Assembly (NCBI GenBank): GCA_020059465.1 | Contig: JAGVBZ010000003.1 | Span: forward strand, 1-64,000 | Reading direction: 5' to 3' | Length of the DNA stretch: 64,000 bases | DNA from: Brevinematales bacterium | GTDB taxonomy: Bacteria > Spirochaetota > Brevinematia > Brevinematales > GWF1-51-8 | Shown: piece by piece, positions 8,829 through 37,316 of the stretch | How the letters are laid out: the number at the start of each line of letters is the position of its first letter | Position numbering within the stretch: the first letter of the stretch is position 1 | Program-made: the position numbers and the translations under genes | The notes under the pieces: model-generated | The model's input: only the letters and a program-made list of their open reading frames with translations | Database searches by the model: none | Told to the model about the DNA's origin: nothing

Positions 8829-10361
8829 ATGGGTATCGAGTTAAACGATGACTTCCGGCGCGCGCTCGACCTGATGGAGAACGGCGTGGGAAATCTTTTT
8901 ATCACGGGTAAAGCGGGCACCGGGAAATCCACCCTCCTTTCCTACTTCCGCGGCATAACGAAAAAAAACATTGTCGTGCTTGCCCCGACCGGGGTGGCCG
9001 CCCTGAATATCGAGGGACAGACGATCCATTCGTTCTTCGGATTCCGCCCGGATATCACGCTCGATAAAATAGTCAAAGTAAAAAGGAACAGCGATATTTA
9101 CCGCGAACTCGATATGATTATCATAGACGAGGTATCGATGGTGCGCGCGGATCTTTTGGACTGTGTGGACGAATTCCTGCGGAAGAACTGCGATCCGGGT
9201 AAGCCGTTCGGCGGGAAGCGGATGATTTTCATCGGCGACCTCTACCAGCTTCCGCCTGTCGTAAGCGCGCACGAGGAACCGATATTCAAGGAACATTATG
9301 AAACCCCGTATTTCTTCTCGTCGGACTCTATCCGGAATTCCCCGATGGAACTGGTCGAACTTGAGAAGGTCTACCGCCAGAGCGACGAGATGTTCATCTC
9401 CATCCTGAACGCGATCCGTACGAACATAATCCGCCCGGAGATGGTCGAGGAACTGAACCGCAGGGTCGACCGGGAATTCGAACCGCCCGACGGGGAATTC
9501 TATGTATCTCTCACCCCGTATAATAAGAACGCTCATGAAATAAACGCCCGGCATATGGATAAAGTCAAATCGAAGGAATACACGTTCCGCGCGGAAGTCC
9601 TCGGCGATTTCGAGGAAAAGAACTACCCTGTCGAGAACCCGCTCGTTCTGAAGGAGGGCGCGCAGGTTATGCTCCTCAACAACGACCCGATGGGACGATG
9701 GGTTAACGGATCGATGGGTAAAATTGCGGGTATAGATACGGACGAGGAGATTATTCATGTCCAGCTCCACGAGGGCGGAACGGTTGAGGTCGGTAAGTTT
9801 CAATGGAGCCTGTTCCGTTACGAATACGACCCCGACGCGCGATCGATACTCTCCAGCCCGGTGGGCATGTTCACCCAATACCCTATCCGTCCGGCGTGGG
9901 CGGTCACTATCCATAAGAGTCAGGGGAAAACGTTCGATAGGGTAATCATCGATATGGGACGGGGCGCGTTCTCGCCGGGGCAGACCTATGTCGCGCTCAG
10001 CAGGTGCAAGTCGCTCGACGGTATCGTCCTGCGCGCGCCGCTGCGGGATACCGGTATCTGGACGGACTGGCGCGTCACGAAGTTCATGACCAATTACCGT
10101 TACGGTATCGCCGAACAGGAAAACCCGGCGGAGGATAAGCTCCGGGCGATACAGGACGCGATCAAGGCGCATAAAAAGATCGAGATCGTGTACCTCAAGA
10201 CTGACGATACGAAATCGACGCGGTTAGTCACTCCCGAGTACGCCGGCGAAATGGAGTACAACCGCCGGACATATACCGGACTGCGGGGATACTGCCATAC
10301 CCGGAACGAATCGAGGACATTCCGGATCGACAGGATTCTCGAGCTCCGGGTACTTGATTGA
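8829..10361 (+). CDS. PIF1/RecD-like superfamily 1 helicase with C-terminal WYL-like domain
   Basis: The 510-residue protein is a 5'-3' DNA helicase of the PIF1 group. Motifs are visible in order: Walker A GKAGTGKST (27-35), motif Ia APTGVAALN, Walker B IIIDEVSM (about 98-105), motif III GDLYQLPP, and the C-terminal TIHKSQGKTFDRV and YVALSRC. The last 70 residues (about 440-510) contain IEIVYLKTDDTKSTR, TYTGLRGYCHTRNESRTFR and IDRILEL. This fits a WYL domain, a ligand- or nucleic-acid-sensing fold common in bacterial stress and defence regulators. It is co-transcribed with DUF1015. Confidence 0.9.
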   Translation: MGIELNDDFRRALDLMENGVGNLFITGKAGTGKSTLLSYFRGITKKNIVVLAPTGVAALNIEGQTIHSFFGFRPDITLDKIVKVKRNSDIYRELDMIIIDEVSMVRADLLDCVDEFLRKNCDPGKPFGGKRMIFIGDLYQLPPVVSAHEEPIFKEHYETPYFFSSDSIRNSPMELVELEKVYRQSDEMFISILNAIRTNIIRPEMVEELNRRVDREFEPPDGEFYVSLTPYNKNAHEINARHMDKVKSKEYTFRAEVLGDFEEKNYPVENPLVLKEGAQVMLLNNDPMGRWVNGSMGKIAGIDTDEEIIHVQLHEGGTVEVGKFQWSLFRYEYDPDARSILSSPVGMFTQYPIRPAWAVTIHKSQGKTFDRVIIDMGRGAFSPGQTYVALSRCKSLDGIVLRAPLRDTGIWTDWRVTKFMTNYRYGIAEQENPAEDKLRAIQDAIKAHKKIEIVYLKTDDTKSTRLVTPEYAGEMEYNRRTYTGLRGYCHTRNESRTFRIDRILELRVLD

Positions 10362-10390
10362 CTGCCGCGCTTATAACAGAATCATAAGCG

Positions 10391-10569
10391 GCATCGCAAT
10401 GACGAATAAGTCTGTCCCTGCGAAGCCAAAGCGGTGAAGCAGCCGGTATAATTCTTTTAACGATTATATAGATTGCTTCTACCTCGCTTCAATATATAAT
10501 TGTAGCGCGGCATCGCTATGACAAATAAGTCTGTCACTGCGAAGCGCAGCGAAGCAGTCTGTGATAAAT
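10391..10569. repeat. Two copies of a ~60-bp dispersed repeat
   Basis: Copy 1 (10391-10448) and copy 2 (10510-10565) share the pattern GCATCGC-ATGAC-AATAAGTCTGTC-CTGCGAAG followed by a GCGAAGCAG-type end. A related sequence occurs near 18880-18910. The copies occupy the gap before rlmB. Confidence 0.7.
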
Positions 10570-10589
10570 AATAAAATAAGGAAAATATT

Positions 10590-11309
10590 ATGATCGTATA
10601 CGGCAGAAATTCCATCGAAGAAGCGTTAGACGAGGGACTATCACTCAGGGATATCACGATAGCGAAAGGGAAAGAGGACAAATTCGCGGGGCTAATGCGG
10701 AAAGCGCATGAGAAGGGCGTGCCTGTCAAATTCGCCCCGTTTGCGCAGATCGAACGCGACGCGAAGACCTCCAAACATATGGGCATCATGGCGGAGCTCG
10801 AACTCCCGCCCAATATTATCGACGACCCCAAGATGGACCACGACTGGAGCGCGTATAACCGCCTCCTCGCCCTCGACGGCATCACCGATACCGGAAACCT
10901 CGGCGCGATCGTCCGTTCGGCGCTCCTCCTCGGTGTCGACGCGATAGTCCTTCCGAACGACAACTCCGCGCGTATCACCCCCGCGACCATTAAAGCGTCA
11001 GCCGGGGCGATCTACCGCCAGAACGTCATCTATATCAACAGTCTGAACCGTTTCCTGCTCGAACTGAAGGACTGCGGGTTCTTCAGCTACGCCCTTGTCG
11101 GGCATGACGCGACCCCGATCACATCGATGAAGTTCGAGGGGAAGGTGTGCCTCGTCATCGGCTCGGAACGCGAGGGTATCCGCAAATCGGTACGGCATAA
11201 CTGCGACGAGCAGGTGTCTATCCCGACGACCGGAAAGCTCGACAGCTTCAACGCGTCGGTCGCGTCGGCTATCGCGATGTGGGAAGTATTCCGGCATGGT
11301 AACAAGTGA
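10590..11309 (+). CDS. rlmB: SpoU-family 23S rRNA 2'-O-methyltransferase (RlmB-like)
   Basis: The 239-residue protein is a SAM-dependent SPOUT methyltransferase, most like RlmB, which methylates the ribose of G2251 in 23S rRNA. An N-terminal substrate-binding domain (about 1-75, starting IVYGRNSIEEAL) precedes the trefoil-knot domain. The knot motifs are present: motif 1 ITDTGNLGAIVRSA (about 99), motif 2 LVIGSEREGI (about 188) and motif 3 IPTTGKLDSFNASVA (about 213). The usual SLNVSVA is SFNASVA here. The TrmH subgroup cannot be fully excluded. The stop codon lies inside a short dispersed repeat, so the last residues (GNK) may derive from it. Confidence 0.9.
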   Translation: MIVYGRNSIEEALDEGLSLRDITIAKGKEDKFAGLMRKAHEKGVPVKFAPFAQIERDAKTSKHMGIMAELELPPNIIDDPKMDHDWSAYNRLLALDGITDTGNLGAIVRSALLLGVDAIVLPNDNSARITPATIKASAGAIYRQNVIYINSLNRFLLELKDCGFFSYALVGHDATPITSMKFEGKVCLVIGSEREGIRKSVRHNCDEQVSIPTTGKLDSFNASVASAIAMWEVFRHGNK

Positions 11310-11338
11310 AAGGTAACAAGTAACAAGTCGAAAGTGTT
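11299..11338. repeat. AAGTGA/CAAGT short-unit repeat at the end of rlmB
   Basis: Degenerate units of GTAACAAGT and GTGAAAGGT run through the rlmB stop codon. The same family appears at 13499-13533, 15917-15942, 16244-16270 (inverted) and 48061-48092. Confidence 0.7.
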
Positions 11339-11468
11339 ACGTGCATGGTTGGGAAAATGGTACTGCAAATTATCCCCTTCATCCCGCCGCCTAATTTGAC
11401 CAAAACCGCCCGATACATTAATATATACGGTTATGATTCCATTAGAATAAGTTTCCGGAGGAACTCAA

Positions 11469-12884
11469 TTGGATATTATAGGAATACTGATAGCGATACT
11501 TGTTTTGGGTATACTAGTGACCGTGCACGAATTCGGGCATTTCCTGATGGCGAAGATTTCCGGTATCGGGGTCGACGTTTTCTCGATCGGCTTCGGTAAG
11601 GAGCTGGTATCGTGGAAATGGGGCGAGACGAAGTACCGGATCGCGCTCATCCCGCTCGGAGGATACTGCAAGATGCGCGGCGACGAAACGAAAGACCGCA
11701 ACCCGAAGGACGCGCCTGCCGAGAAAGAGGAAGCCCCCGTACCCGCCGAAAAAGACCCCAAGGCGATGTATAACCGTCCCCCATGGGCGCGCGTGCTCGC
11801 GGTAGTCGGCGGATCGCTTTTCAACTATATATTCGCTATACTTATATTCTTCAGCCTGTTCCTGTTCGGGTATAAGGATAATGTCATAACCCCGAAGGTA
11901 TCGGTTGTCGAAAAAACGGAGGACGGTTCGCCGTCGCCCGCATATGCCGCAGGGCTTCGCACCGGAGACTGGATAGTCTCCATCAACGGCAAACCCGCAG
12001 AGACTTTCTCCGATATCGCACAGTCCGTCCTGCTCGGCGTCGGCGATGAAAAGACTCTCGTCTATGTCCGCAACGGGGCGACCAATACCGCGATCCTGAC
12101 CCCTGTCCTGAGTCAAAAGACCGGCGCGGGATATGTCGGAATCGGGCCGTACGAACTTCCCGTCGAACCGGTCATCGGAGGACTGGTGAAGAACCGTCCC
12201 GCTTCGGACGCCGGACTGAAGGTGAACGACCGGATCATATCCGCCGACGGTATTGAAATCACCTCCTATGCCGGACTGACCAATTTTATATTCGCCAACC
12301 CCAATAAAACCGTCACATTCAAGATACAGCGAGGCGACCAGACATTCGACGCCACCCTCAAGCTCGCGGCGATTGTCAGCACCAATAACGGCGCAGTCGT
12401 CGAATCGGGACTCCTCGGTATCTATCCCCTTGTGAAATACGAAACTGTCGAGAAGGAGATCCGCGCGGATAATTTCTTCCACGCCATCGCGCTGGGGTTT
12501 ATGGAGGCGAACACCTCCATCGTGCGTACATGGGACGGCCTGGTCGTGATGATCAGGGGAAAGATCGACGTGCAGAGGCATATGTCCGGCCCGCTCCGCA
12601 TCATCCAGGTCACGAGCACGATCGCCACCCACGCGAACTTCGTCAAGTTTCTCCAGTTCATGGCGATGATCTCAGTCGCGCTCGCGTTCTTCAATATCCT
12701 GCCCCTACCCGGACTGGACGGCGGGCACTTCCTGCTGAACCTGTTCGAATGGGTCACGCGGATCAAGCCGAGCGAGAAAGTGCTTACCGTGATCGAATAT
12801 GTGGGGCTGTTCTTTATCATATCGCTCGCGGCCATCGTGTTCGTTAACGATATCTTCAATATCATCCGGGACGCCACGGCATGA
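11469..12884 (+). CDS. rseP: RIP metalloprotease RseP (site-2 protease)
   Basis: The 471-residue inner-membrane zinc protease cleaves transmembrane segments, classically an anti-sigma factor in the envelope-stress response. The zinc motif HEFGH is at residues 20-24 and the third-ligand LDG motif at 416-418 (NILPLPGLDGGH). Two PDZ-like regions lie between (about 130-215 and 225-300). There is a Pro/Glu/Lys-rich insert at about 75-95. The start is a TTG preceded by GGAGGA at 6 bases; no suitable ATG lies nearby and the hydrophobic first helix requires this start. The purN start overlaps its stop by 4 bases. Confidence 0.96.
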   Translation: MDIIGILIAILVLGILVTVHEFGHFLMAKISGIGVDVFSIGFGKELVSWKWGETKYRIALIPLGGYCKMRGDETKDRNPKDAPAEKEEAPVPAEKDPKAMYNRPPWARVLAVVGGSLFNYIFAILIFFSLFLFGYKDNVITPKVSVVEKTEDGSPSPAYAAGLRTGDWIVSINGKPAETFSDIAQSVLLGVGDEKTLVYVRNGATNTAILTPVLSQKTGAGYVGIGPYELPVEPVIGGLVKNRPASDAGLKVNDRIISADGIEITSYAGLTNFIFANPNKTVTFKIQRGDQTFDATLKLAAIVSTNNGAVVESGLLGIYPLVKYETVEKEIRADNFFHAIALGFMEANTSIVRTWDGLVVMIRGKIDVQRHMSGPLRIIQVTSTIATHANFVKFLQFMAMISVALAFFNILPLPGLDGGHFLLNLFEWVTRIKPSEKVLTVIEYVGLFFIISLAAIVFVNDIFNIIRDATA

Positions 12885-13507
12885 AAATAAGACTCGCGGT
12901 ACTGGTTTCCGGGCGCGGGTCGAACCTACAGGCTATCCACCGCGCGATCGGGAACAAGGTGTTCGACGGCGAAATCGTGCTAGTCCTCGCCGACAACCCC
13001 GGCGCGGCCGCGCTCGGCTTCTGCGCGGATAACGGTATCCCGTCGAAGTATATCCATCCCGGCGACTTCAAGACCAAGCTCGAAGGCGCCGCCGAGCAGG
13101 CGTATATCGCCGCCCTCCGCGCCGCCGCGCCCGACCTCATCGTGCTCGCCGGCTTCATGCGGGTGGTCAAGCCCCCCCTCATCCGCGCGTTCGAGAACCG
13201 GATCATCAACATACACCCGTCCCTTCTCCCGAAATACCCCGGCCTGCACACCCATGCCCGCGCCCTCGAAGCGGGAGACCGTGAGACCGGATGCACCGTC
13301 CACTTCGTCAACGAGGTAATCGACGGCGGTAAACGCATCATGCAGGCGAGAGTCCCGATCCGCCCGGGCGACACAGAAGCGTCCCTGTCCGCGCGCGTAC
13401 TGAAAGTGGAGCACCAAGTGCTCCCCGCGGTGATAAAAATGTTCGCCGATGGGAAGATCGATTATAAGACGTTTCCGGCCGAGCCGATGATATTCAGTGC
13501 AAAGTGA
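12881..13507 (+). CDS. purN: Phosphoribosylglycinamide formyltransferase PurN
   Basis: The 208-residue enzyme transfers the formyl group from 10-formyl-tetrahydrofolate to GAR in de novo purine synthesis. The phosphate-binding SGRGSN loop is at residues 10-15. The catalytic residues are N110 and H112 (INIHPSLLP) and D148 (VIDGG). Spacing equals the E. coli enzyme plus four. It overlaps rseP in an ATGA junction, indicating translational coupling between unrelated functions. The last codons (SAK, stop) run into an AAGTGACAAGT repeat. Confidence 0.97.
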   Translation: MKIRLAVLVSGRGSNLQAIHRAIGNKVFDGEIVLVLADNPGAAALGFCADNGIPSKYIHPGDFKTKLEGAAEQAYIAALRAAAPDLIVLAGFMRVVKPPLIRAFENRIINIHPSLLPKYPGLHTHARALEAGDRETGCTVHFVNEVIDGGKRIMQARVPIRPGDTEASLSARVLKVEHQVLPAVIKMFADGKIDYKTFPAEPMIFSAK

Positions 13508-13533
13508 CAAGTTACAAGTAAAAAGTGAAAGTC
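13499..13533. repeat. AAGTGACAAGT repeat at the end of purN
   Basis: Tandem degenerate units (AAAGTGACAAGTTACAAGT, then AAAAAGTGAAAGT) begin inside the purN stop region. They belong to the same family as the repeat at the end of rlmB. Confidence 0.7.
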
Positions 13534-13749
13534 AAACAGCCGGAATACAGTATTTATCCGCGAATGGACACGAATGTACGCGAATAATATATTTGGATGA
13601 CCGTCCTTCGCCCGGCTTAGGAAGATGATGACCGCGCCTCGATACACCGCCTTCGGCGTTTACTCGGCAATCTACAATACACGTTGGGGAATGGAAATCC
13701 CTTAATCTTTGAAATATTTTTAAAACCGTTCTATTATATAGCCGATTAA

Positions 13750-14142
<393 letters not shown>

Positions 14143-14341
14143 GTGGGAAGTGACCCTTCGGCTACGCCCCCGCTGCGTCCCCTACGGGGACAAGCGAGGA
14201 CAAGCTCAGGGACCGGCGGCAAACAATCGTAAGTAAACAGCCGGAATAGGCGGATTGTCACGGAGGGGAAAAGGGGATTGTCAGATTTCATCGTGACTAG
14301 TTCACTTTAGAAATATTCTAGATAATAATCTTAATAATGAT

Positions 14342-15832
14342 TTATGAACTTTTCATAGCTTCTAAACTAATTTTGGGGGAAGCTCTCATTTTATCTTTTC
14401 TTGACTTATCATCTTTATTTCCAGGTTCAATTTGATCAAATTTTCTTAATCTTGTAAAATCATATAATCCAACATCAAGAATATAGGCTTCATAATGTTT
14501 TCCATCACTTGGGGCTGAACTTGTGTTCTTATCTATCAAATGAATAAACCTCATATCAAATAAATCTCTAATTGCATTTTTCTCCTCCGGGTTTCTATCC
14601 AATTCTCCTTTATCAATTAAAAAACAATTTGTACGTTCTTTGTTCAGCACTTCATCTTTTAAATAATTTAAATATCGTTCTAGTCGCTCATAGTTTTTTG
14701 AAACCTCTTGTTCAAGAGATTGAAATTTATTTGTCATATATGCTGCAGATTGAGAATTAACTATCTCTTTTCCAATTTTCTGCCCGGGATTTACTATCAT
14801 TTCATTTATACATTTTGATAGAAGCATTAAAAAATCTCTTGTGACTCCACCACTCGCAATGCATAATTGTTTCAATCCTGCTCCTCCAAACATGTCATTC
14901 TCCGTTATTGATACATGAGCGGCTCTAAATATTTCGATTAATAATTGAGAGTAGAATTTCATTAATAAATCCATGTCTTCTAATGAATAATCTAAATCGA
15001 TTTCGATTGCATCATGTCCTATTTCTATCCCTTGATAAGTATCTTTATCTTTTATATAAAATATACTTCTATGTTTTATAGATGCAATTTTTTTATAAAT
15101 ATTAGTATCTTTTGTGAGCACATGAAGAACATCTGCTAAATATGGTTGACTATCAATGCGAATAAAATAAAAATCGTCAAGGAGTATATACAAGGGTTTA
15201 TCAATATAAATAAATTTGTAAGATAGCGTTAATACATTTTTATATGATATTAAATTCTTCCTAATTTTATCTAATTTTGCGAATTGCATTTCTCTTGAAA
15301 GAGTTTGTTCTGATTTATCTAAGGTAGATATATCTGCGCTAGCATTAATACCATTAACTTTAATATTCGCACCCTTATGTTTTTCACTCGTGCTCATGTG
15401 TGTCAAGCTTGAAACATATGAGTCTTCTTCTTGATAAAGTTTACCTAATTCATCTAAAATTGCTTTTAAATCTTTTAGAAGTTTTGCTTTTTTAAAAATA
15501 TGTATGGTTATTCGCTTCTTTACTCCATTTTTTATATACTCAAAAATTTCCTCTAGGATTTTAATTATTATATTTGGAAAAGTAATATTTTTATAATTCT
15601 CAAGATTCATTTCAATATGATTTACTTTATTTTTTTTTAATTCTCCCAGAAGAGTTGATTTTCCTGAACCTCTTCTTCCAAAAATAATATCGTTCTTCTT
15701 TGCAAGTACTGATCTTTTATTATCATGCAAATCAATATAAGGAATACCAGAAGTTGAGGTTTTCCTTAAATTCTCTTCAATGTATGTTCTTACTTTTACT
15801 AAATCATCTTTTAATCTTTCTTCATCAATCAT
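14342..15832 (-). CDS. P-loop ATPase of ORC/AAA type, probably horizontally acquired
   Basis: The 496-residue product has Walker A at 52-60 (GRRGSGKST) and a likely Walker B at 214-220 (LYILLDD). A sensor-like arginine lies near 250, and GGVTRDFLMLLSKCI near 320-340 could belong to a winged-helix or lid region. This resembles ORC/Cdc6- or KAP-like P-loop NTPases found in mobile and defence loci, but no specific family was recognised. The DNA is far more AT-rich than its neighbours: the line starting at 15601 has 14 G/C in 60, against 31 in 60 at 17281. No obvious effector gene adjoins it. The C-terminus is Lys/Ser-rich. Confidence 0.7.
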   Translation of the reverse strand: MIDEERLKDDLVKVRTYIEENLRKTSTSGIPYIDLHDNKRSVLAKKNDIIFGRRGSGKSTLLGELKKNKVNHIEMNLENYKNITFPNIIIKILEEIFEYIKNGVKKRITIHIFKKAKLLKDLKAILDELGKLYQEEDSYVSSLTHMSTSEKHKGANIKVNGINASADISTLDKSEQTLSREMQFAKLDKIRKNLISYKNVLTLSYKFIYIDKPLYILLDDFYFIRIDSQPYLADVLHVLTKDTNIYKKIASIKHRSIFYIKDKDTYQGIEIGHDAIEIDLDYSLEDMDLLMKFYSQLLIEIFRAAHVSITENDMFGGAGLKQLCIASGGVTRDFLMLLSKCINEMIVNPGQKIGKEIVNSQSAAYMTNKFQSLEQEVSKNYERLERYLNYLKDEVLNKERTNCFLIDKGELDRNPEEKNAIRDLFDMRFIHLIDKNTSSAPSDGKHYEAYILDVGLYDFTRLRKFDQIEPGNKDDKSRKDKMRASPKISLEAMKSS

Positions 15833-16273
15833 ATTATTTCCTTTATTTTAGTTCTATTATACATTTTACTATCTTTTTGTCAATCCCTACGCGGAATTTC
15901 CGTAAATAAATCAGTACAAAGTGACAAGTGTAAAGTAAAAAGACTGCCCGAAGATGGAAAAATGCATTTCTCCGTGCCTCCGCGGTAATATTCAACCGCC
16001 TCCCCCTTTTTCCTGCGGGGCGCAAATCTAAATCATCTGCATCATCCCCGTTCCATTCGTGCGGTTTCGTGTTCATTCGTGGATAAACATTGCCTTTCCT
16101 CCGTGCCTCTGCGGCAATCCGTAAAATCCGCGTCCATCAGTGTGATAAGGGGTCGGTATATTGCACCATTCGCCTGCCCTCGCTAGTCACCGTACTCGTG
16201 ATGGAGAAGTCCCGCGACGGCATGGATGCCGAAGCCGGCTGTTTACTTTCCACTTGTCACTTGTCACTTCTAC

Positions 16274-16285
16274 GGAAACGTTTCC
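16274..16285. promoter_or_regulatory. LacI-family operator-like palindrome
   Basis: GGAAACGTTTCC is a perfect 12-bp palindrome centred on CG, as LacI/GalR-family operators are. It lies 9 bases upstream of the -35 box of the glycosidase-like gene. Confidence 0.5.
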
Positions 16286-16294
16286 ATATTTCTC

Positions 16295-16322
16295 TTGCGT
16301 TTTTTTGCCCGCGCGGTATAAT
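16295..16322 (+). promoter_or_regulatory. Promoter of the glycosidase-like lipoprotein gene
   Basis: TTGCGT (16295-16300) and TATAAT (16317-16322) are separated by 16 bases. They lie 33 bases upstream of the start codon. Confidence 0.65.
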
Positions 16323-16355
16323 ATACCCGAAATATTTAATACTTCGGAGGCCGTT

Positions 16356-18710
16356 ATGAAAAATCTGATCGTATTTCTCATCATGTTATCCCTCGCGTCG
16401 TGCGGGGGGCGTATCGTCAAGTTCACGGTTACCGACAAGGACACGGGCAAACCCATCAAGGGCGTGAATTTTGTCGCGGGCGACGTGATCGCCATCACGG
16501 GCGAGGACGGTACCGCCGAGGTGGACACCGGAAGCATCGACACCGACAAGCTCCAGATATCCAAAAAGGAGTACAAGTTCGTCTACATCGGGTGGGACGA
16601 CCTCGAGGCGAACTCCGAGATGAAGATCGCCATGATCGAGAAGATGCCCCCCGCCGACGTCACCGGACTGCGGATCGAGTTCGAGGGCGCGGATGCCGTG
16701 CTCAAATGGAACCCGTCCCTTTCGGACGACGCCGCCTATTACGATGTTCACCGGCAGTCGGGGCTTAATTCCGCCACGGTACTGAAGAAGAAACTTGACG
16801 GCTTCTCGGTAAAACTCGGTAAAATCGAAAAATACCAGGACTTCGTGTTCACTGTTTTCACATACGACAAGAACGGCAATAAAAGCAAAGGAAAGACGCT
16901 CAAGTATTACAAGGGGGCGGAGAAGATGGAACTCAAGAAGAACGCCAAGCTCGGCGGCACGATCACCGGCGGAAAGGGCGAGCTTTACGCGGTGCTGTAC
17001 CCTGTCTATATCAGCGACTACGAGGAGTACGATTTTTCGCCTGTCACGGTGAAGTGCGATAAGAACGGTAAATATTTATCCGACGCTGTCCCCGCGGGCA
17101 AGTACACCGTCAAGGCGTTCGCCGACCTGAACGGCAACGGGGTCTGGGACGGCAGTTGGCTCGGGAATACCGCCGAACCCGTATCGGTCAGGAACTCCGT
17201 ATTCCTCGCGCCCAACCAGACCTCGATGTGCGATATCACGGTACGTCCGGCGGGCACGGGCTTGCCCGAGGTGATCTACGACGAGAACCCCGGATATGTC
17301 GAACTGTATAATAAGGCGTGGGAATTCGCGCGCGAGAAGATATCCAAGGGCAACGTCGCCAAGGGATTTGTCGCGGCATATATGGACGAGGGCTTCAACG
17401 ACCATATCTATCAATGGGATACGTGCTTCATGATGTTCTTCGGCGTATACGGCGGCAACGAGTTCCCGGCGATGTACTCGGTCGATAACTTCTACCTCAA
17501 GCAACGCGAGAACGGCTATATCTGCCGCGTCCAGAGCGAGACCACCGGGAAGGACTACGACCCCACCCCGGCCGACCCGCATGTCAATCCCCCGCTTTAT
17601 ACATGGGTGGAATATAATTACCTGATGAAGACCGGCGACGAATCGCGCCTCCTCCCGGCGATCTACCATAACCATAAATATTTCCAATGGCTGAAAAATA
17701 ACTGCCGCACTCCGGAGGGATTCTACTTCACGTCGAACCTCGGCTCCGGTATGGACAATTCCCCGCGCGAGGGTTCCGCATACGGCTGGATCGATATCAC
17801 CTCGCAGATGGCATTGTTCGCCATGTATATGGACAAGCTCTGCACATTCGCCGGGAATACAAAGCTCGCCAAGCAGTATAAGGACGAGTACGAGGCGCTG
17901 AAGAAGCTCATCAACGGTAAGATGTGGAGCGCAAAGGACGGGATTTACTACGATGTGAAAAAGAACGGGTCGTTCCACGCGAAAAAGACGATCGCGTCGT
18001 TCTGGCCGATGCTCGCCATGCTCGCGTCCCCGGAACAGTGTAAACTCCTCGCGGGTCACCTGAAGAATCCCGACGAGTTCTACCGCCCGCACCTTTTCCC
18101 GACCCTCTCCAAATCCGAGCCGGAGTACGATCCCAAGGGGCATTATTGGCTGGGCGCGGTATGGGCGCCGACCACATTCATGACAATCAAGGGGCTTGAG
18201 GCGAACGGATTCGACGAATTCGCCCGCGAGGCCTCTCTCAACCATATCCAGAATATGTACGAGGTCTACGCGAACTTTGTGCCTGATAAAAAGAAGCTTC
18301 CGTACAAGCAGAACAATATCCCGTTCCCGCCCGATCTCGACGGCACCAAGCAGATATGGGAATGCTACAGTTCCGAGTTCAAGGAGCCTGCGACCCGTTG
18401 GGACAATATTTTCTATGTCCGCCCCAAGTTCGTGGGGTGGTCCGGCGACGGGCCTATCGCTCTCCTGATCGAGAACGTCATCGGTATCCGGCTCGACGCC
18501 CCCGCGTCGAAGATCGTGTGGAATATCTCGAGCGATAAGAAGCACGGTGTGAAGAATCTCCCGTTCGCGGGAGGATCGGTCGACCTCGTGATGGAGAAGA
18601 TCGACGGCGGCAAGCCTGTGATCGTAGCTTCATCGACCCTGCCGTTCAATGTCACGCTGGAAGTGAAGTATAACGGTAAGACTATTACCCAGACGATTAA
18701 GGGGAAGTAA
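16356..18710 (+). CDS. Lipoprotein with FnIII-like domain and (alpha/alpha)6 glycosidase domain (GH63/trehalase-like)
   Basis: The ATG at 16356 follows GGAGG by 5 bases and begins a lipoprotein signal with lipobox LASC (C16), giving 784 residues. A small beta-domain (about 20-95) is followed by a fibronectin-III-like domain (about 100-185). A transthyretin-like segment at about 195-290 reads like a carbohydrate-binding or spacer module. The catalytic-type region (about 300-740) has DHIYQWDTCFM, YGWIDITSQM and HYWLGAVWAPTTF. These match the helical toroid of GH63/GH37-type enzymes that hydrolyse alpha-glucosides or mannosylglycerate. The substrate cannot be told from sequence. It is likely surface- or periplasm-exposed, and a LacI-type operator suggests sugar control. 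Confidence 0.8.
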   Translation: MKNLIVFLIMLSLASCGGRIVKFTVTDKDTGKPIKGVNFVAGDVIAITGEDGTAEVDTGSIDTDKLQISKKEYKFVYIGWDDLEANSEMKIAMIEKMPPADVTGLRIEFEGADAVLKWNPSLSDDAAYYDVHRQSGLNSATVLKKKLDGFSVKLGKIEKYQDFVFTVFTYDKNGNKSKGKTLKYYKGAEKMELKKNAKLGGTITGGKGELYAVLYPVYISDYEEYDFSPVTVKCDKNGKYLSDAVPAGKYTVKAFADLNGNGVWDGSWLGNTAEPVSVRNSVFLAPNQTSMCDITVRPAGTGLPEVIYDENPGYVELYNKAWEFAREKISKGNVAKGFVAAYMDEGFNDHIYQWDTCFMMFFGVYGGNEFPAMYSVDNFYLKQRENGYICRVQSETTGKDYDPTPADPHVNPPLYTWVEYNYLMKTGDESRLLPAIYHNHKYFQWLKNNCRTPEGFYFTSNLGSGMDNSPREGSAYGWIDITSQMALFAMYMDKLCTFAGNTKLAKQYKDEYEALKKLINGKMWSAKDGIYYDVKKNGSFHAKKTIASFWPMLAMLASPEQCKLLAGHLKNPDEFYRPHLFPTLSKSEPEYDPKGHYWLGAVWAPTTFMTIKGLEANGFDEFAREASLNHIQNMYEVYANFVPDKKKLPYKQNNIPFPPDLDGTKQIWECYSSEFKEPATRWDNIFYVRPKFVGWSGDGPIALLIENVIGIRLDAPASKIVWNISSDKKHGVKNLPFAGGSVDLVMEKIDGGKPVIVASSTLPFNVTLEVKYNGKTITQTIKGK

Positions 18711-30231: not shown

Positions 30232-30353
30232 TTTTCCTCCCGAGAATATTATAACGGAGACTCAAAACTAAATCAAACTGCCGCGCCCACGCATCGGGTT
30301 GCGGTTTTTTCGTAATTATGTTAATATAATAAAATTTTCTGGAGGAAGTGAAT

Positions 30354-31676
30354 ATGAGGGTGCTTCACACATTGTGTTTATTGCTGATCATGGCAGGTTC
30401 TATTTCCGCTTTGGATGTAAAATTCGACGGCGATTTCCGGACACGTTTCTACTCCTTTATCAATAAGGATATGGATTTTACCCGCAACGCCGATTACTGG
30501 TCGGTCGATTCCCGGCTGCGTCTGGGTATCGAACTGGAAGTTACCCCGACTTTCACAGTGTACTATAAACTCGAAGTCGGTAACCTTCCATGGGGCGAAC
30601 TCGCGGTCGGCGGAGGATTAGGCGCCGATAAATGGAATCTCGAAACCAAGAATATGTATTTGGATTATAAGGATGTATTCTGGCACGGGAAATTGGGGAT
30701 TTTCGGTTTCAAGACCCCGCTCGGATCGGAACTTGACGACGACTTGATGGGATTGAAGATCACGTTTACTCAGCCTATATTCGAGATAGATGTCATGGTC
30801 TCTAAGCTCTTTAACGGTACGAACAACTCCATCTCCAATGTGAACGACGATAACGATTATTTCGAGGTCGAGAGCTGGACCGATACGTATCTGTACTTTG
30901 TCAACGGACAGATCAAGCTCGCCCCGATAAACGCGCAGGTCTATTTCATGCGTGTCGTCGACGACCGTTTCGCCTTTAAGTATTCGCTGAACTGGATCGG
31001 CACCTACGATACGTTGAAAATCGATCCCCTCAAGATAGACCTCGGTTTCTCATATAATATGGGCACGGTCGATAACCTCGGGACAACCATCGGAGTTTCG
31101 GCGTTCCACCTGTACGGGAAAGCCGAATTCGAGTTCTTCAATTTCCTGAAAATTTTCGCACGTGTTAATATGACGACCGGGAACGATACAAACCAGAACG
31201 GGATCGAGCAGTATCAAGTCGTGGGCAATCACGGAAACTTCAAGTCCGATCTGGGTATCCTGTTCGGGGGCGGCCCGTTCAGCCAGCAGTCTTATTTCGA
31301 TTACCGCGTCGTTTCGGCCGATTCCCGTAAGAACCTGACCCGGGGCGCGATCCGCTTCGACGATCCCGGACTGTTCGTGATCGAATTCGGCGCAGAGGCG
31401 AATATCAAAGATATCGGGTTACAGTCGAAGTTTGTCGCCGGTATCGCCCAGACCACTGTCGCGGTCGGTACAAATAATGCAACCCTGCTCGGTATCGAAT
31501 TCGATCTGCATAACCGTTTCAAGCTTGATAAGAATGTATATTTCTTCCTGAGCGGCGCGATCCTGATACCCGGCACCGCCCTTACCCCTGTGTATAATAT
31601 GAACCATTCGACTATCAACCTCGGCACAGATATGGCGTTCAAGGTCGACGGCAAAATCGAGATCGAGTTCAAGTAA
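30354..31676 (+). CDS. Outer-membrane porin-like beta-barrel
   Basis: The ATG at 30354 sits 7 bases after GGAGGA, whereas the in-frame GTG at 30348 is too close to that site. The resulting 440-residue protein has a signal peptide ending near GSISA. It then has about 16-18 alternating amphipathic strands with short turns and a C-terminal strand ending KIEIEFK. The start of the mature part (LDVKFDGDFRTRFYSF) resembles alginate-export or general porins of spirochaete-like bacteria. No specific substrate can be assigned. A strong terminator lies 50 bases downstream. Confidence 0.8.
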   Translation: MRVLHTLCLLLIMAGSISALDVKFDGDFRTRFYSFINKDMDFTRNADYWSVDSRLRLGIELEVTPTFTVYYKLEVGNLPWGELAVGGGLGADKWNLETKNMYLDYKDVFWHGKLGIFGFKTPLGSELDDDLMGLKITFTQPIFEIDVMVSKLFNGTNNSISNVNDDNDYFEVESWTDTYLYFVNGQIKLAPINAQVYFMRVVDDRFAFKYSLNWIGTYDTLKIDPLKIDLGFSYNMGTVDNLGTTIGVSAFHLYGKAEFEFFNFLKIFARVNMTTGNDTNQNGIEQYQVVGNHGNFKSDLGILFGGGPFSQQSYFDYRVVSADSRKNLTRGAIRFDDPGLFVIEFGAEANIKDIGLQSKFVAGIAQTTVAVGTNNATLLGIEFDLHNRFKLDKNVYFFLSGAILIPGTALTPVYNMNHSTINLGTDMAFKVDGKIEIEFK

Positions 31677-32099: not shown

Positions 32100-32127
32100 T
32101 TGACTTTCTATAGATTTCTTTTATAAT
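32100..32127 (+). promoter_or_regulatory. Strong sigma-70-type promoter of the surface-protein operon
   Basis: TTGACT (32100-32105) is followed after 16 bases by a perfect TATAAT (32122-32127). Confidence 0.85.
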
Positions 32128-32139
32128 ATTCGCCGAAAA

Positions 32140-32153
32140 TGTAAGCGCTTACA
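32140..32153. promoter_or_regulatory. cre/LacI-type operator at the transcription start
   Basis: TGTAAGCGCTTACA is a perfect 14-bp palindrome that fits the catabolite-responsive element and LacI-family consensus. It lies 12 bases after the -10 box, where a bound repressor would block transcription. Confidence 0.65.
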
Positions 32154-32173
32154 GCTTATTTACGGAGGATATT

Positions 32174-35100
32174 ATGAAAAAATGGTTCTGGGGCATTATT
32201 TTATTCTTATCCGCCCCGCTCGCGGCGTTCCCCGCCGCGGGTTCTGTTCCCCTTTTCTCACCGTCCATCGACGGGTTTAAGGATACCGGATGGGGGAGCA
32301 CTCCGACCGCATCCAGCGCGAATTTCCGGGCTCTGACTATCTCGGCAAATTCCGCGTTCCATGTGCAGAACGCCTGTCAGGACGTATATGTCACCGACGA
32401 CCCGCAGTACTTATACATCGGTTACTTCTATAACGGCGATGTGCTTAATAACGGCGGCAACGCTTCGTCGCGTATCATCTTCGGGTTCATCACCAATTCC
32501 GGCGGCACAACAGGCGGCCCGTTCGACCCATGGGAGAACGGCACTACTTACGGCTCCGCCAACAAGCCCGACTTTCTGCTCCGGCAGTGGACCGAAGCCC
32601 CCTACGACGAACGGATGGAATTCGGCGGCGCATTGGGTTACAGTTCGCTCACCAAGGGGGTATCCGAGTTCCTGAACTGGAACGGTTCCTCATGGGTCGG
32701 CGCGGGATCGGTCGTCCACTTCGAGCGTCTGACAAAAATATCCAATAACATGAAGGTCTATTTTTACAAACCCGCCGGATGGGCGGGAGTTCCGCGTATC
32801 CATTACTGGAACGGCGATTTCGGCGCATCGGACTGGGCGACACGTCCGTATATGACCCCCGAAGGAGGAAACCTTTATTCCTACACCTTCAGCGGGTACG
32901 GCACTACGATGCTGATGTTCTCGGATACAAATAAGACCCAGTTTACCGCAGACCTCACCCGCACCGGAAGCGGGACATACAGTAATACCGCGTGGCTTAC
33001 CGGGGATGTGAACCTCTCCACGTACGCGAACAACTGGGCTGAGATAAAGATACCGTTATCTGCGCTCGGCCTCGTGACCGGGGGTACGGTCAAGGTGTTC
33101 ATGTACTACCGCCCGGATATGAGCAAGGCCGGATTCTCCGACTCGGTACCGTTCGACCCGAACGCTTCCGCCGACGGCACTACCGCGGCGACCCTCAACT
33201 CCAATTTTACCTATATCATCCGCTCGGACAATATCAAGCCCGTGCTCTCGCAGTTCTCGCCCGCGCAGTTCACCAATAACCAGAACCGGAACGTCAACAT
33301 CTCGTTTCGCGTGGTCGACAACGTCAACTTCTCATCGACGAATATTAATGTTATTATAGAAGGGAGCGACGCGATCAAAGCCGGCGTATTCCAGCCGGGC
33401 TTTACCGGATCGATCGTACCGAATTCATCGAAAGACTACACGGTCACTATCAATCCCGATCAGGACTTTGTATACGAGCAGAAAGTGGATATCGAAGTCA
33501 CAGTCAGCGACGCCGCGGCGAACGTCCTCCAGACGGGATACTACTTCTTTGTCAAGGCCGACACGACCGCGCCGACTTACTCGTCGCTCAACCCCCTGCC
33601 CGGCGCGGCAGGCGTAGCGCGCAGTACCACAATCTTCTTCAACGTCAACGACGACGATCAGGTCAAGCTGAGTTCCATACTTGCGGCCGTAAACGGTACC
33701 GTCGTGCTGTCGAATAACTATAAGGCCAACGCGTCCAGCCAGCTTATCCCCACCGGGAACGGGTATAATGTCACTATCGTCCCGGTCTCGTATTTCAGCT
33801 TCGGGCAGACCGTTACAGTAAGCCTGACCGCGAAGGATAACAAGGGCAACACGAAGGTAACGAATTACTCATTTACGATAACCCCCGACGATATCAAACC
33901 GACTCTCGTCAACGGGAGTCCGGCAATCGGCGCGAACAACCAGCTTCCGGGTGTGAACGTGAGCTTCCAGCTCGACGACAACATACAGGTCGCGCTCGCG
34001 CAGATACAGGCAAAGATCGGCGGGACGAACGCAATCGTCAACGGCGTGCTTCAGGCCGGCTACGGCGGGAGTATCACCGTGAACGGCAGCGGATACAATG
34101 TGCTGATCAACCCGAATACGGACTTTAATTATAGCCAGGCCGTCAACGTCTGGACTCAGTTCAAGGACAATCAGGGCAATACAACGACGACAAACTGGGG
34201 ATTCACCGTGAAGGCGGACGATATCGCCCCCGGCATTTCGAACCGCTCGCCGGCCCCTGCGGCAGTCAACCAGCTCCGTTCGGTCAACATCCTTTTCGAT
34301 GTGTATGATAACGTCGGAATCAACCCGTCCACCCTGAATGTGACGGTCAACGGCCAGAACGCAATTATCGGGGGCGTTTCCCAGTCCGGTTACGGCGGAA
34401 GCATCACCCCATACACGAGGGGATATCACGTGATGATTAATCCGGACACCGATTTTAATTACGACCAGACCGTGTCGGTGCAGGTAAACGTGCAGGACAG
34501 TCAGGGCAACCCGTTATCGACATCCTACAGCTTCAGCATTAAGGCCGACGACGTCAAACCGACTATCAGCGGGCTGAACCCCGCGTCCGGCGCGACGGGT
34601 GTGGATATTACTAAAATGCTGGCGCTTAACGTACAGGACGACAGTTCTGTCGTCAATTCCAGCGTGATCGTGAAAATCAACGGGGCGCTCGCCCTATCCA
34701 ACGGGTCGTTCTACGCGCCCTATAACGACACTCTTTCGTCGATGAGCGGCGCGGCGGGCGCGGTCTCGCTTGTTATCGATAAGACGGGATATTGGACATA
34801 CGAGAGCGTGAATACGGTCAATGTTATCGCGAAAGACCCGCGCGGGAACACCCTGAATACTAATTATTCCTTCACGATAAAATCCGACGATATCGCGCCG
34901 TTCCTGACCAATATCGCCCCGGCAACCGCGGGCGCGCCGAAATCCTCCGATACGAATATCACGCTCGATATCGCGGATAACGTAGGCGTCCCGAAGAGCA
35001 GTATCTATATCTATATAAAAACCAACAGCGGCGCGAGTCCCGCTATGACCGCATACACCAACGGTTCGCAGCAGCCGGGATTCACGGTCTCCGACAATCC

Positions 35101-36229
35101 CAACGGTTTCAACGGGTATAGCATGCTGGTCGATCCGTCGTTCTCGTTCCATTACGGTGATACGGTATGGGTATATGTGTCCATGAAGGATACTAAAGGA
35201 AATCCCGGTTCTTATAATTGGTCGTTCACCATCCAGAGCGGCGACACCACCAAACCGGTCATATCGAAGGCGAATCCCGGATACGGTGCGGCCGATGTCG
35301 AACCGGAAACCCATATTTACTTCGAGACCTCGGATAACTCGCAGGTGGTCAGGGAAAAAATCAACGTCGATGTCTTTATCGGCGGGATGTGGATAGACGC
35401 GGTCACGAACGGAGTATTTGTCGCGCCGTTCAACGGGGCCGCCGGGAAATTCGTATCGAACGCCAATCACGGGTACGATGTCACAGTCGATTATGTCTCC
35501 GTATTTAATTATACAAACACCTATGGAATCCGTGTGGCGATAGAGGACGACAGCGCCTCCGGCAACGCGGTCACGAACACGTGGTACTTCACCGTCCGTC
35601 CGCCGGATACCACTCCGCCTGTCATCGCGAACTTTGTGCCCGCAAGCGGTTCGGTCGATATTCCGATCGCGTCCACGTTCTCGTTCATGGTGATGGACAA
35701 CTACGGCGTGGAATCGAATAAGATCGTCGTACTTCTGAACGGGAAGGTTATCCTGTCGAATGCTCAGTTCGCGGCGGGATATGACGGTTCGGGGAGCAGT
35801 ATGTCCGCAAACGCCCAGAAAGGGCAGAACGTCATCATCGACCCTGTAGGGGATTTCAACTACGGCGACGTCATCACGTTAATAGTGACCGCTGTAGATA
35901 CGAGCACAAATATGACGTCGGTGACCAATACCCTGCTGTTCCAGCCCGTGGCACAGGCGTCCGCGCTGACCAGCATCATCGATCCCCAGAAGGGCACGTC
36001 GCAGATTGTCGTGAAAATGAACCGCAGCGGGAACGCGTCCGCATCGGTCTACACTCTCGCGGGCGATAAGGTCGCAGTCATCCCGGAAAAGTACTATAAC
36101 GCCGGGGACCATCTTGTATGGGACGGGAAACTGAACGATACCGGCGATACGGTCGGGAGCGGGTGGTACTTCATCCATATCGAGGGCAGCGAGTTCAATA
36201 TTGTCGTTAAAGTCATCGTAATCCGGTAG
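32174..36229 (+). CDS. Large secreted protein with CBM26-like module, eight Ig-like repeats and FlgD-Ig-like C-terminal domain
   Basis: The 1351-residue product has a signal peptide (1-23). Residues about 25-190 resemble a DOMON/CBM9-like beta-sandwich. Residues about 192-275 match the starch-binding CBM26 pattern (VYFYKPAGW, IHYWNGDFG, MLMFSDTNKTQFTADL). Eight repeats of about 100-120 residues follow (about 350-1255), each starting D(D/T)xxP and carrying (D/N)D(N)xxV, YGGSI and a closing (Y/W)xFT(I/V) strand; these are bacterial Ig-like domains. The last 90 residues (YTLAGDKVAVI, VWDGKLNDTGDTVGSGWYFIHI) fit the FlgD-Ig/T9SS-tail fold. A strong promoter and a cre-like palindrome precede it, and the PorV-like barrel gene starts 10 bases after its stop. 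Confidence 0.85.
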   Translation: MKKWFWGIILFLSAPLAAFPAAGSVPLFSPSIDGFKDTGWGSTPTASSANFRALTISANSAFHVQNACQDVYVTDDPQYLYIGYFYNGDVLNNGGNASSRIIFGFITNSGGTTGGPFDPWENGTTYGSANKPDFLLRQWTEAPYDERMEFGGALGYSSLTKGVSEFLNWNGSSWVGAGSVVHFERLTKISNNMKVYFYKPAGWAGVPRIHYWNGDFGASDWATRPYMTPEGGNLYSYTFSGYGTTMLMFSDTNKTQFTADLTRTGSGTYSNTAWLTGDVNLSTYANNWAEIKIPLSALGLVTGGTVKVFMYYRPDMSKAGFSDSVPFDPNASADGTTAATLNSNFTYIIRSDNIKPVLSQFSPAQFTNNQNRNVNISFRVVDNVNFSSTNINVIIEGSDAIKAGVFQPGFTGSIVPNSSKDYTVTINPDQDFVYEQKVDIEVTVSDAAANVLQTGYYFFVKADTTAPTYSSLNPLPGAAGVARSTTIFFNVNDDDQVKLSSILAAVNGTVVLSNNYKANASSQLIPTGNGYNVTIVPVSYFSFGQTVTVSLTAKDNKGNTKVTNYSFTITPDDIKPTLVNGSPAIGANNQLPGVNVSFQLDDNIQVALAQIQAKIGGTNAIVNGVLQAGYGGSITVNGSGYNVLINPNTDFNYSQAVNVWTQFKDNQGNTTTTNWGFTVKADDIAPGISNRSPAPAAVNQLRSVNILFDVYDNVGINPSTLNVTVNGQNAIIGGVSQSGYGGSITPYTRGYHVMINPDTDFNYDQTVSVQVNVQDSQGNPLSTSYSFSIKADDVKPTISGLNPASGATGVDITKMLALNVQDDSSVVNSSVIVKINGALALSNGSFYAPYNDTLSSMSGAAGAVSLVIDKTGYWTYESVNTVNVIAKDPRGNTLNTNYSFTIKSDDIAPFLTNIAPATAGAPKSSDTNITLDIADNVGVPKSSIYIYIKTNSGASPAMTAYTNGSQQPGFTVSDNPNGFNGYSMLVDPSFSFHYGDTVWVYVSMKDTKGNPGSYNWSFTIQSGDTTKPVISKANPGYGAADVEPETHIYFETSDNSQVVREKINVDVFIGGMWIDAVTNGVFVAPFNGAAGKFVSNANHGYDVTVDYVSVFNYTNTYGIRVAIEDDSASGNAVTNTWYFTVRPPDTTPPVIANFVPASGSVDIPIASTFSFMVMDNYGVESNKIVVLLNGKVILSNAQFAAGYDGSGSSMSANAQKGQNVIIDPVGDFNYGDVITLIVTAVDTSTNMTSVTNTLLFQPVAQASALTSIIDPQKGTSQIVVKMNRSGNASASVYTLAGDKVAVIPEKYYNAGDHLVWDGKLNDTGDTVGSGWYFIHIEGSEFNIVVKVIVIR

Positions 36230-36239
36230 GGGGCGTAAA

Positions 36240-37259
36240 ATGAAAAAATTATTTATTATTACCCTTTTTATTGCATCATTCGCCGGGCTTCTCCGGGCGG
36301 AATATGGGATGTCCAGTATCCCGGTGTTTATGATAGAGAATTATGTCCCGCGCGCGCTGGGAATGGCAAACTGCGGGCTGACAGTCAAGGGCGACGTGAA
36401 TTTCATCACGGTCAACCCCGCGTCGATGGCGCAGGTCAAGCTCATCAGCTTCGGCGCGTCGAGGATGCAATGGCTATTCGGCTCGACCTATAACGCGTTC
36501 AACTTCGCCCTGCCGATACCGTCGAAATACCGCAGCGCGGGAGTGATCGGACTGACTGCGGCGCTTTTTACTATCGACGGGTTCGACGCCTCAATCAACG
36601 GGATATCGCAGGGTATCATGAACGCCGGCGACTTCCTGGTGGGGCTGTCGTACGCGAACAACCTTTTCGCGCCGTTCGATAATATCCTCGCCGATCAGCA
36701 GCATCTCGATATGGGATTCACCGTCAAGTTCGCGCAGGCGCAGCTTGCGAATTATATCGCGTACAGCCTCGCGTTCGACGTTGGTGTGTCGTATTCGCTG
36801 AGGGTGAAGAATTTCACCGACCTCCTCGACGTCCGCCAATTCAAGAGTGAAACCAATATTTCCGATACTTTAACGTTCTCCGCGGCGTTGAAAAACCTCG
36901 CGGTCAGCCTGAAGGGATTTACCGATAACGGGCAGATCCAGTCGCCGTGGTACTTCGGATTCGGCGTGTCCTATATCGGGTTCGACAACGACCGTCATAT
37001 GGCGAAGGCGACAATGGAAGTACGCAAACCGAGCGATAACGAATGGATGCTCGCGGCGGGCGCGGAATACTCCTATAAGAATACGATTTTTGTGCGCGGA
37101 GGGTATAAGATACTCGGAAAGGACTACGAGGGCTTCAGTTTCGGACTGGGGCTGAATTTCGAGGTGACGAGCACGCTGGCGTTCACCGTGGATTACTCGT
37201 TCGCGCCGCTTAATTACCAAGGGCAGACGGATGCGTTCTCGCTGTCCGTCGTGTTCTGA
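36240..37259 (+). CDS. PorV/UPF0164-like outer-membrane barrel
   Basis: The 339-residue protein has a signal peptide ending near LLRA. The entry (ENYVPRALGMANCGLTVKGD, ITVNPASMAQV) is a close match in pattern to PorV/UPF0164 barrels, which carry ARALGMGGA...DxxAxxxNPA. The rest is a FadL-type barrel ending in Phe (FSLSVVF). In Bacteroidota PorV receives proteins with type IX tails at the outer membrane, and UPF0164 members are typical of spirochaetes. The gene directly follows a secreted protein with an FlgD-like tail and shares its operon, so a receptor or shuttle role is a reasonable inference. Confidence 0.75.
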   Translation: MKKLFIITLFIASFAGLLRAEYGMSSIPVFMIENYVPRALGMANCGLTVKGDVNFITVNPASMAQVKLISFGASRMQWLFGSTYNAFNFALPIPSKYRSAGVIGLTAALFTIDGFDASINGISQGIMNAGDFLVGLSYANNLFAPFDNILADQQHLDMGFTVKFAQAQLANYIAYSLAFDVGVSYSLRVKNFTDLLDVRQFKSETNISDTLTFSAALKNLAVSLKGFTDNGQIQSPWYFGFGVSYIGFDNDRHMAKATMEVRKPSDNEWMLAAGAEYSYKNTIFVRGGYKILGKDYEGFSFGLGLNFEVTSTLAFTVDYSFAPLNYQGQTDAFSLSVVF

Positions 37260-37284
37260 CCATAAACCCAATTAATAAGGGAAA

Positions 37285-37316
37285 ACCCCCGGTCTGATGG
37301 CCGGGGGTATTTTTAT
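37285..37316 (+). terminator. Intrinsic terminator of the surface-protein operon
   Basis: A perfect stem ACCCCCGG (37285-37292) with CCGGGGGT (37301-37308) is followed by ATTTTTATATTTT. The minus-strand side also has a short T run, so it may serve the convergent DUF4956 gene. Confidence 0.88.

Follow-up and report, generated by a model that had tools for sequence, protein, structure and literature searches.

A pair of adjacent genes in a 64,000-nucleotide stretch of DNA from a Brevinematales bacterium (contig JAGVBZ010000003.1; hereafter the window) raises the question of whether a route related to the type IX secretion system (T9SS) operates outside Bacteroidota. The upstream gene encodes a giant exported protein with a starch-binding module (the cargo) and the downstream gene encodes an outer-membrane barrel of the PorV type. 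A first-pass annotation, made from the letters alone, had proposed a carbohydrate-controlled, type IX-related cargo and receptor pair. Sequence comparisons suggest, with a probability that we put at roughly 0.7, that the two genes form a starch-regulated cargo-receptor unit of a divergent type IX-like route in Spirochaetota, which on the best reading would use one receptor per cargo in a manner resembling SprB-SprF of Flavobacterium johnsoniae. The features on which this proposal is built are as follows.

32100-37308, + strand: two-gene unit, from promoter to terminator-like stem
32100..32127, + strand: sigma-70-type promoter, TTGACT-16-TATAAT, 11/12 consensus positions
32140..32153, no strand: putative LacI-type operator, perfect palindrome TGTAAGCGCTTACA, sole match in the window
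32174..36229, + strand: open reading frame (ORF) of the cargo, 1351 residues, predicted Sec-exported, with CBM26, eight immunoglobulin (Ig)-like repeats and a C-terminal sorting tail
32756..32947, + strand: CBM26 module, cargo residues 195-258 (Pfam PF16738, 37.7 bits against a cut-off of 28.1)
35936..36226, + strand: putative T9SS type-A/FlgD-like sorting tail, last 97 residues of the cargo
36240..37259, + strand: ORF of the PorV-like barrel, 339 residues, proposed receptor, shuttle or anchor of the cargo
37285..37308, + strand: terminator-like stem-loop at the 3' end of the unit, 10-pair stem and T-rich tail

Both ORFs are as the first-pass annotation had described them, with the barrel ORF starting after a gap of 10 bp from the cargo stop codon; the cargo ORF is preceded by a GGAGG site. 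The two genes are conserved, along with their spacing and the promoter-operator arrangement, in a related metagenome-assembled genome (MAG), GWF1_51_8 (Spirochaetes bacterium), in which the cargo orthologue has 1353 residues (locus L003), and the barrel is also conserved in the MAG GWF1_49_6. These two MAGs are Brevinematales-like spirochetes, which places the genome of the window in the same group and outside Bacteroidota.

The barrel protein carries a signal sequence and ends in a phenylalanine. It scores 105 bits against the NCBIfam PorV/PorQ family (NF033709; curated cut-off 90), does not reach the cut-off of the PorV equivalog (250) and gave no match to the PorP/SprF models. Comparison of a 24-member profile of spirochete barrels (first row, the window protein) with all PDB sequences produced PorV of the Flavobacterium T9SS translocon as the best match (6h3i_F; full length, E-value 7.6e-36), the runner-up having an E-value of 5e-8. 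An AlphaFold2 model of the barrel shows 14 strands (mean predicted local distance difference test score, pLDDT, 82.6), and the top two Foldseek hits are both PorV (8gl6_F and 6h3i_F; query template-modelling score 0.66-0.68), with FadL behind. The nearest solved relative is thus PorV both by sequence and by fold, as the first-pass annotation had anticipated.

The cargo begins with a Sec-type signal sequence, as read from its translation. In addition to the CBM26 module, its Ig-like repeats match Pfam Big_5 (73.4 bits), and eight Ig linkers can be read in the translation, five of which were caught by a strict regular expression; the starch-binding-like module and the eight repeats noted at first pass are thereby borne out. 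The tail of the window protein matches the T9SS type A model TIGR04183 with an E-value of 1.1e-4 (22.1 bits; cut-off 23). Among the tails of 20 genes that precede PorV-family barrels, 18 match TIGR04183 at E <= 0.01 and 18 likewise match FlgD_ig, with the type B model TIGR04131 matched by a mere two. The description of the tail as FlgD-Ig-like therefore holds for the family, 18/20 of whose tails match FlgD_ig; the window's own tail gave no match to FlgD_ig at E 0.01, and its TIGR04183 match is just under the cut-off. A profile of the tails compared with the PDB retrieves FlgD, the C-terminal domains (CTDs) of PorU and of gingipain, and the NucA CTD, which is bound to the SprA-PorV complex. The tail was modelled as a beta-sandwich with six to seven strands (pLDDT 84.7), in line with the first-pass expectation; its fold matches are unspecific, comprising many Ig-like domains, and could not by themselves tell a CTD of the T9SS apart from a FlgD or fibronectin-like domain. 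The same sorting tail is also present on a subtilisin (S8) protease on another contig of the same genome (C29; L194:4074-6176), conserved in two further genomes (G003 and G005). The ORF next to this protease is strand-rich, gave no match to the barrel profile and was not counted as a paired barrel.

The juxtaposition of tail and barrel recurs. A search of the genome with the window barrel as a single sequence found only itself, and the family profile produced seven matches: four separate barrels, one solitary barrel and two barrels fused to an OmpA-like end. The barrels on contigs C31, C11, C28 and C34 each start 4-13 bp after the end of a tail-bearing gene, and the same pattern was seen in 25 further genomes. 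In a held-out test, a tail model trained solely on sequences of the window's class (Brevinematia) was applied to a distant genome of another class (G019). Of the 22 genes that precede a barrel there, 14 carry a tail (E <= 1e-3), as against 2 of the 102 remaining ORFs of the same loci (p 3e-11); both of the latter are tail proteins that flank a barrel on its other side or lie in its vicinity. The tail was always found at the very C-terminus of the cargo. Other tail-bearing genes, which the first-pass annotation had proposed looking for, are therefore present beside PorV-like barrels both in the genome itself and beyond its class. Unpaired barrels also exist: many genomes encode a barrel of about 400 residues with a tetratricopeptide-repeat-like end and no tail gene ahead of it.

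Several variations on this arrangement were observed. On contig C28, tandem tail proteins of 2602 and 2571 residues (L195:2452-10260 and 10270-17985) have one PorV-like barrel in common (L031:6990-8288), and a comparable pair of ORFs of ~2580 residues is found in G005. The two fused proteins of the window's genome, of 1410 and 892 residues (L030:4313-8545 and L032:6127-8805), join a PorV-type barrel to FlgD-like Ig repeats and end in an OmpA-like portion; they are possibly cell-wall-anchored relatives of the PorP-PorE arrangement. Large expansions occur in two genomes of the same phylum, G029 and G041 (L090, L091 and L197-L200), with 61 and 82 first-look barrel candidates, respectively; the 2.9-Mb genome of G029 also has 70 tail matches.

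A translocon for such cargo initially appeared to be missing, as the Pfam model SprA_N (PF14349) found nothing in 17 genomes. This was overturned by the full-length NCBIfam model of SprA (TIGR04189), which detected one ORF of ~1900-2000 residues in 7/7 pair-bearing genomes tested; the PF14349 result is therefore no evidence of absence. SprA, the first of the type IX genes suggested for a search, thus has a divergent homologue in the genome of the window, a single-copy ORF of 1989 residues (G000:C4, near 110939-116908) with a neighbourhood conserved in two congeners, which makes contamination unlikely. The SprA homologues of the seven genomes score 82-107 bits in hmmscan over two or three colinear stretches, and a profile built from them and compared with the whole PDB retrieves SprA alone (6h3i_A and 6h3j_A; E 1.5e-9), the alignment covering chain residues 141-882 and including the DDFE motif. 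Across 246 genomes of the spirochete phylum (121 genera; counts take no account of kinship), an SprA homologue is present in 80 genomes and 57 genera, and a PorV-family match at E <= 1e-12 in 100 genomes. An SprA homologue accompanies the PorV-family match in 42 of the 43 genomes in which that match exceeds the cut-off, versus 38 of the 203 others (uncorrected for phylogeny).

Shorter ORFs of 1572-1741 residues with weak SprA-like profile matches were also observed (L201:1916-6784, L202:1939-7164, L203:1705-6594 and L204:3474-8192). Three of these four loci adjoin a conserved exported protein of ~450 residues, and the NCBI SprA model is blind to the ORFs themselves, which may be reduced relatives of SprA in other spirochete families. 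In one family (f22), many complete genomes have a single sub-cut-off PorV-family match and no SprA match; either these PorV-family proteins have a different function or their translocon has diverged past detection.

Several observations weigh against a type IX-like assignment. The SprA homologues lie well under the curated TIGR04189 cut-off (82-107 bits, a value of 84.5 among them, versus 200) and are missed by Pfam SprA_N, the window tail falls 0.9 bit short of the TIGR04183 cut-off, and FlgD-like Ig domains are also known in proteins without such an export route. Coupling between barrel and translocon has exceptions: 18 SprA-bearing genomes have no PorV-family match at 1e-12, and SprA is missing from 38 that do have one. 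PorU and GldM, also suggested for a search at first pass, were not detected: a PorU-type peptidase C25 (PF01364) was found neither in the genome of the window nor over the cut-off in 17 genomes, in a search without a positive control, and GldM (TIGR03517) gave chance-level matches only in nine genomes, likewise without a positive control, with GldK, GldL, GldN, PorW and PorT not searched. As the comparison genomes were without any type IX system, the GldM and C25 negatives are weak, and type B cargo can do without PorU (PMC9143113). Since GldM and the sortase were looked for and not found, the route is classed here as type IX-like and not as type IX proper. The proposal of a type IX-related cargo and receptor pair outside Bacteroidota accordingly stands as to relatedness, with an SprA homologue, PorV-like barrels and tails that resemble T9SS sorting domains, and does not extend to a complete type IX system, GldM and PorU being undetected and the SprA homologue far below its cut-off.

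Other explanations of the pair can be considered. The tail and barrel could serve in surface anchoring only, the cargo crossing the outer membrane by other means and the SprA homologue having another role. The undetected GldM and PorU, the two barrels that are fused to OmpA-type domains rather than paired and the PorV-family barrels of genomes without SprA would fit such an anchor; we nevertheless consider it unlikely, because over-cut-off PorV-family matches nearly always coincide with an SprA homologue (42/43) and because the tail resembles T9SS signals, which act in export in Bacteroidota. At the other extreme, a complete canonical system could have been transferred from Bacteroidota, with its GldKLMN and PorU components undetected, which would account for the joint presence of SprA, PorV and CTD homologues. 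The great divergence of SprA, its spread over 57/121 genera and the conservation of its neighbourhood in three congeneric genomes argue against recent transfer, and together with the negative GldM and PorU searches they make this explanation highly improbable.

The barrel could instead be a small-molecule or maltodextrin channel, with the CBM protein as its periplasmic or surface binding partner and the tail as one more Ig domain. In favour of this are the membership of PorV in the FadL superfamily, the rank of FadL transporters just behind PorV among the fold matches, and CBM26 and the operator, which indicate starch use. The barrel profile, however, favours PorV over FadL-type channels by ~28 orders of magnitude, the pairing recurs with cargo that lacks starch modules, such as giant proteins of 2600 residues, and the tail is invariably at the extreme C-terminus. 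An uptake pair of the FadL type is thus the least probable of the explanations considered, and the type IX-like cargo-receptor unit is preferred over all three.

Control by starch is suggested by the region ahead of the cargo gene. The near-consensus promoter and the 14-bp perfect palindrome after it were both described at first pass and are confirmed. The promoter is the best of eight promoter-like sites in 5.9 kb, where shuffled sequence averages 5.2 sites, and the GWF1_51_8 orthologue has TTGACA and TATAAT in the matching position. The palindrome TGTAAGCGCTTACA has no second match in the window when up to two mismatches are allowed (0.13 expected by chance); it begins 12 bp beyond the -10 box, ends 20 bp ahead of the ATG and is conserved as TGTAAGCGCTTTCA in the GWF1_51_8 orthologue. 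Known kin of such sites are the cre and LacI-family operators of the CcpA and MalR type; TGTAAGCGCTTACA likewise fits the LacI-family pattern and likewise marks starch genes. A search of the 3.19-Mb genome (<= 2 mismatches) found ten sites, a number that is not enriched over that for a reversed control pattern (nine), so that the case for an operator rests on the positions of the sites and not on their number. Seven of the ten lie just upstream of GH13, CBM26, CBM48 or CBM53 genes: the window gene, three CBM26 alpha-amylase lipoprotein loci, one GH13 alpha-amylase, one CBM53 gene and one CBM48 gene. Of the other three, one adjoins fliW and is also ~150 bp upstream of the CBM53 gene, one adjoins an HD-domain gene and one the gene of an unassigned exported protein. 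For the window gene, its GWF1_51_8 orthologue and two of the amylase genes, the operator stands directly 3' of TATAAT, with 19-30 bp left to the start codon; judged from sequence, a repressor site of a starch regulon would be laid out in this way. The carbohydrate control proposed at first pass is thus upheld as putative membership of a starch regulon, and induction by carbohydrate is predicted from that membership. In G019, genes for regulators that are LacI-like by sequence adjoin several cargo-barrel pairs (L074:5883-6899, L083:3-1007 and L081:2-1797), which suggests sugar control of further pairs.

In the mechanism envisaged, a LacI-family repressor would occupy the operator downstream of the promoter and be released in the presence of starch-derived sugars. 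The Ig/CBM26 protein would then cross the inner membrane via Sec, its C-terminal beta-sandwich tail would be recognized at the outer membrane and the chain would exit through the giant SprA-like barrel, whose single gene lies at another place in the genome. The PorV-like barrel made from the same unit as the cargo would take the tail from the translocon and retain the cargo non-covalently on the surface, as SprF does for SprB, leaving the CBM26 end to bind starch there and to serve the co-regulated amylases. Homology and gene order are the grounds for inferring secretion, tail-barrel contact and surface location; a repressor and an energy source are likewise presumed.

Just 5' of the unit, at 30348-31676, lies a gene for an exported protein of 442 residues that partially resembles, at 49 bits against a cut-off of 250, the model for Desulfovibrio-type homotrimeric porins.

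The naming of PorV-family barrels in spirochetes by NCBI is already known, and UPF0164 is presumably a name for the same spirochete PorV-PorQ family proteins (NF033709), the barrel family found here in 100 of the 246 genomes. These proteins are annotated as barrels only, and neither adjacent tail-bearing cargo nor an SprA homologue is described for them in the literature found. The closest parallels to the spirochete pairs are the type B CTD and PorP/SprF pairs of the Bacteroidota T9SS (SprB-SprF and Fjoh_3952-Fjoh_3951), in which a large tail protein is likewise encoded just upstream of its own FadL-type barrel, several pairs likewise occur per genome and the translocon is likewise of the SprA type. 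In F. johnsoniae, type B CTD substrates require the shuttle barrel encoded directly downstream in order to leave the SprA pore (PMC12618676), and the cargo stays bound to its barrel at the surface without PorU or PorV (PMC9143113). The spirochete pairs differ in that the barrel belongs to the PorV/PorQ family, the tail is type-A/FlgD-like, GldM is undetected and the phylum is Spirochaetota. With PorV and its type A CTD cargo in the T9SS (6h3i and 8gl6) they share a full-length barrel profile match to PorV, tails that match TIGR04183 and a translocon homologue that matches SprA. One PorV serves all type A cargo in the T9SS, however, whereas in spirochetes a barrel of its own goes with most cargo loci, one genome having at least 25 barrel matches, and no C25 sortase was detected. 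The T9SS has been called restricted to Bacteroidetes (PMC4793230) and confined to the Fibrobacterota-Chlorobiota-Bacteroidota (FCB) phyla, with its genes absent elsewhere (PMC11285876). A literature search whose coverage mostly excluded subscription journals found no account of SprA or a T9SS in Spirochaetota. What is new here is the SprA homologue, its coupling to PorV-family barrels and the one-to-one organization of cargo and barrel.

Taken more broadly, the balance of evidence tips slightly towards an ancient type IX-like route belonging to Spirochaetota, with a divergent SprA, power from something other than a recognizable GldLM motor, a PorV-like receptor for each cargo or small group of cargo and dozens of pairs in some genomes, which would extend type IX export beyond Bacteroidota and their relatives. 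The cargo of the window would then act at the surface as a starch-binding arm produced alongside secreted amylases. The organization with one barrel per cargo makes the question of cargo specificity directly testable, and the route, if real, would be a candidate for the display of very large surface proteins by spirochetes. The presence of SprA in 80 of 246 spirochete genomes, tightly linked to PorV-family barrels and tail proteins, would shift the origin of type IX export outside Bacteroidota and the FCB group.

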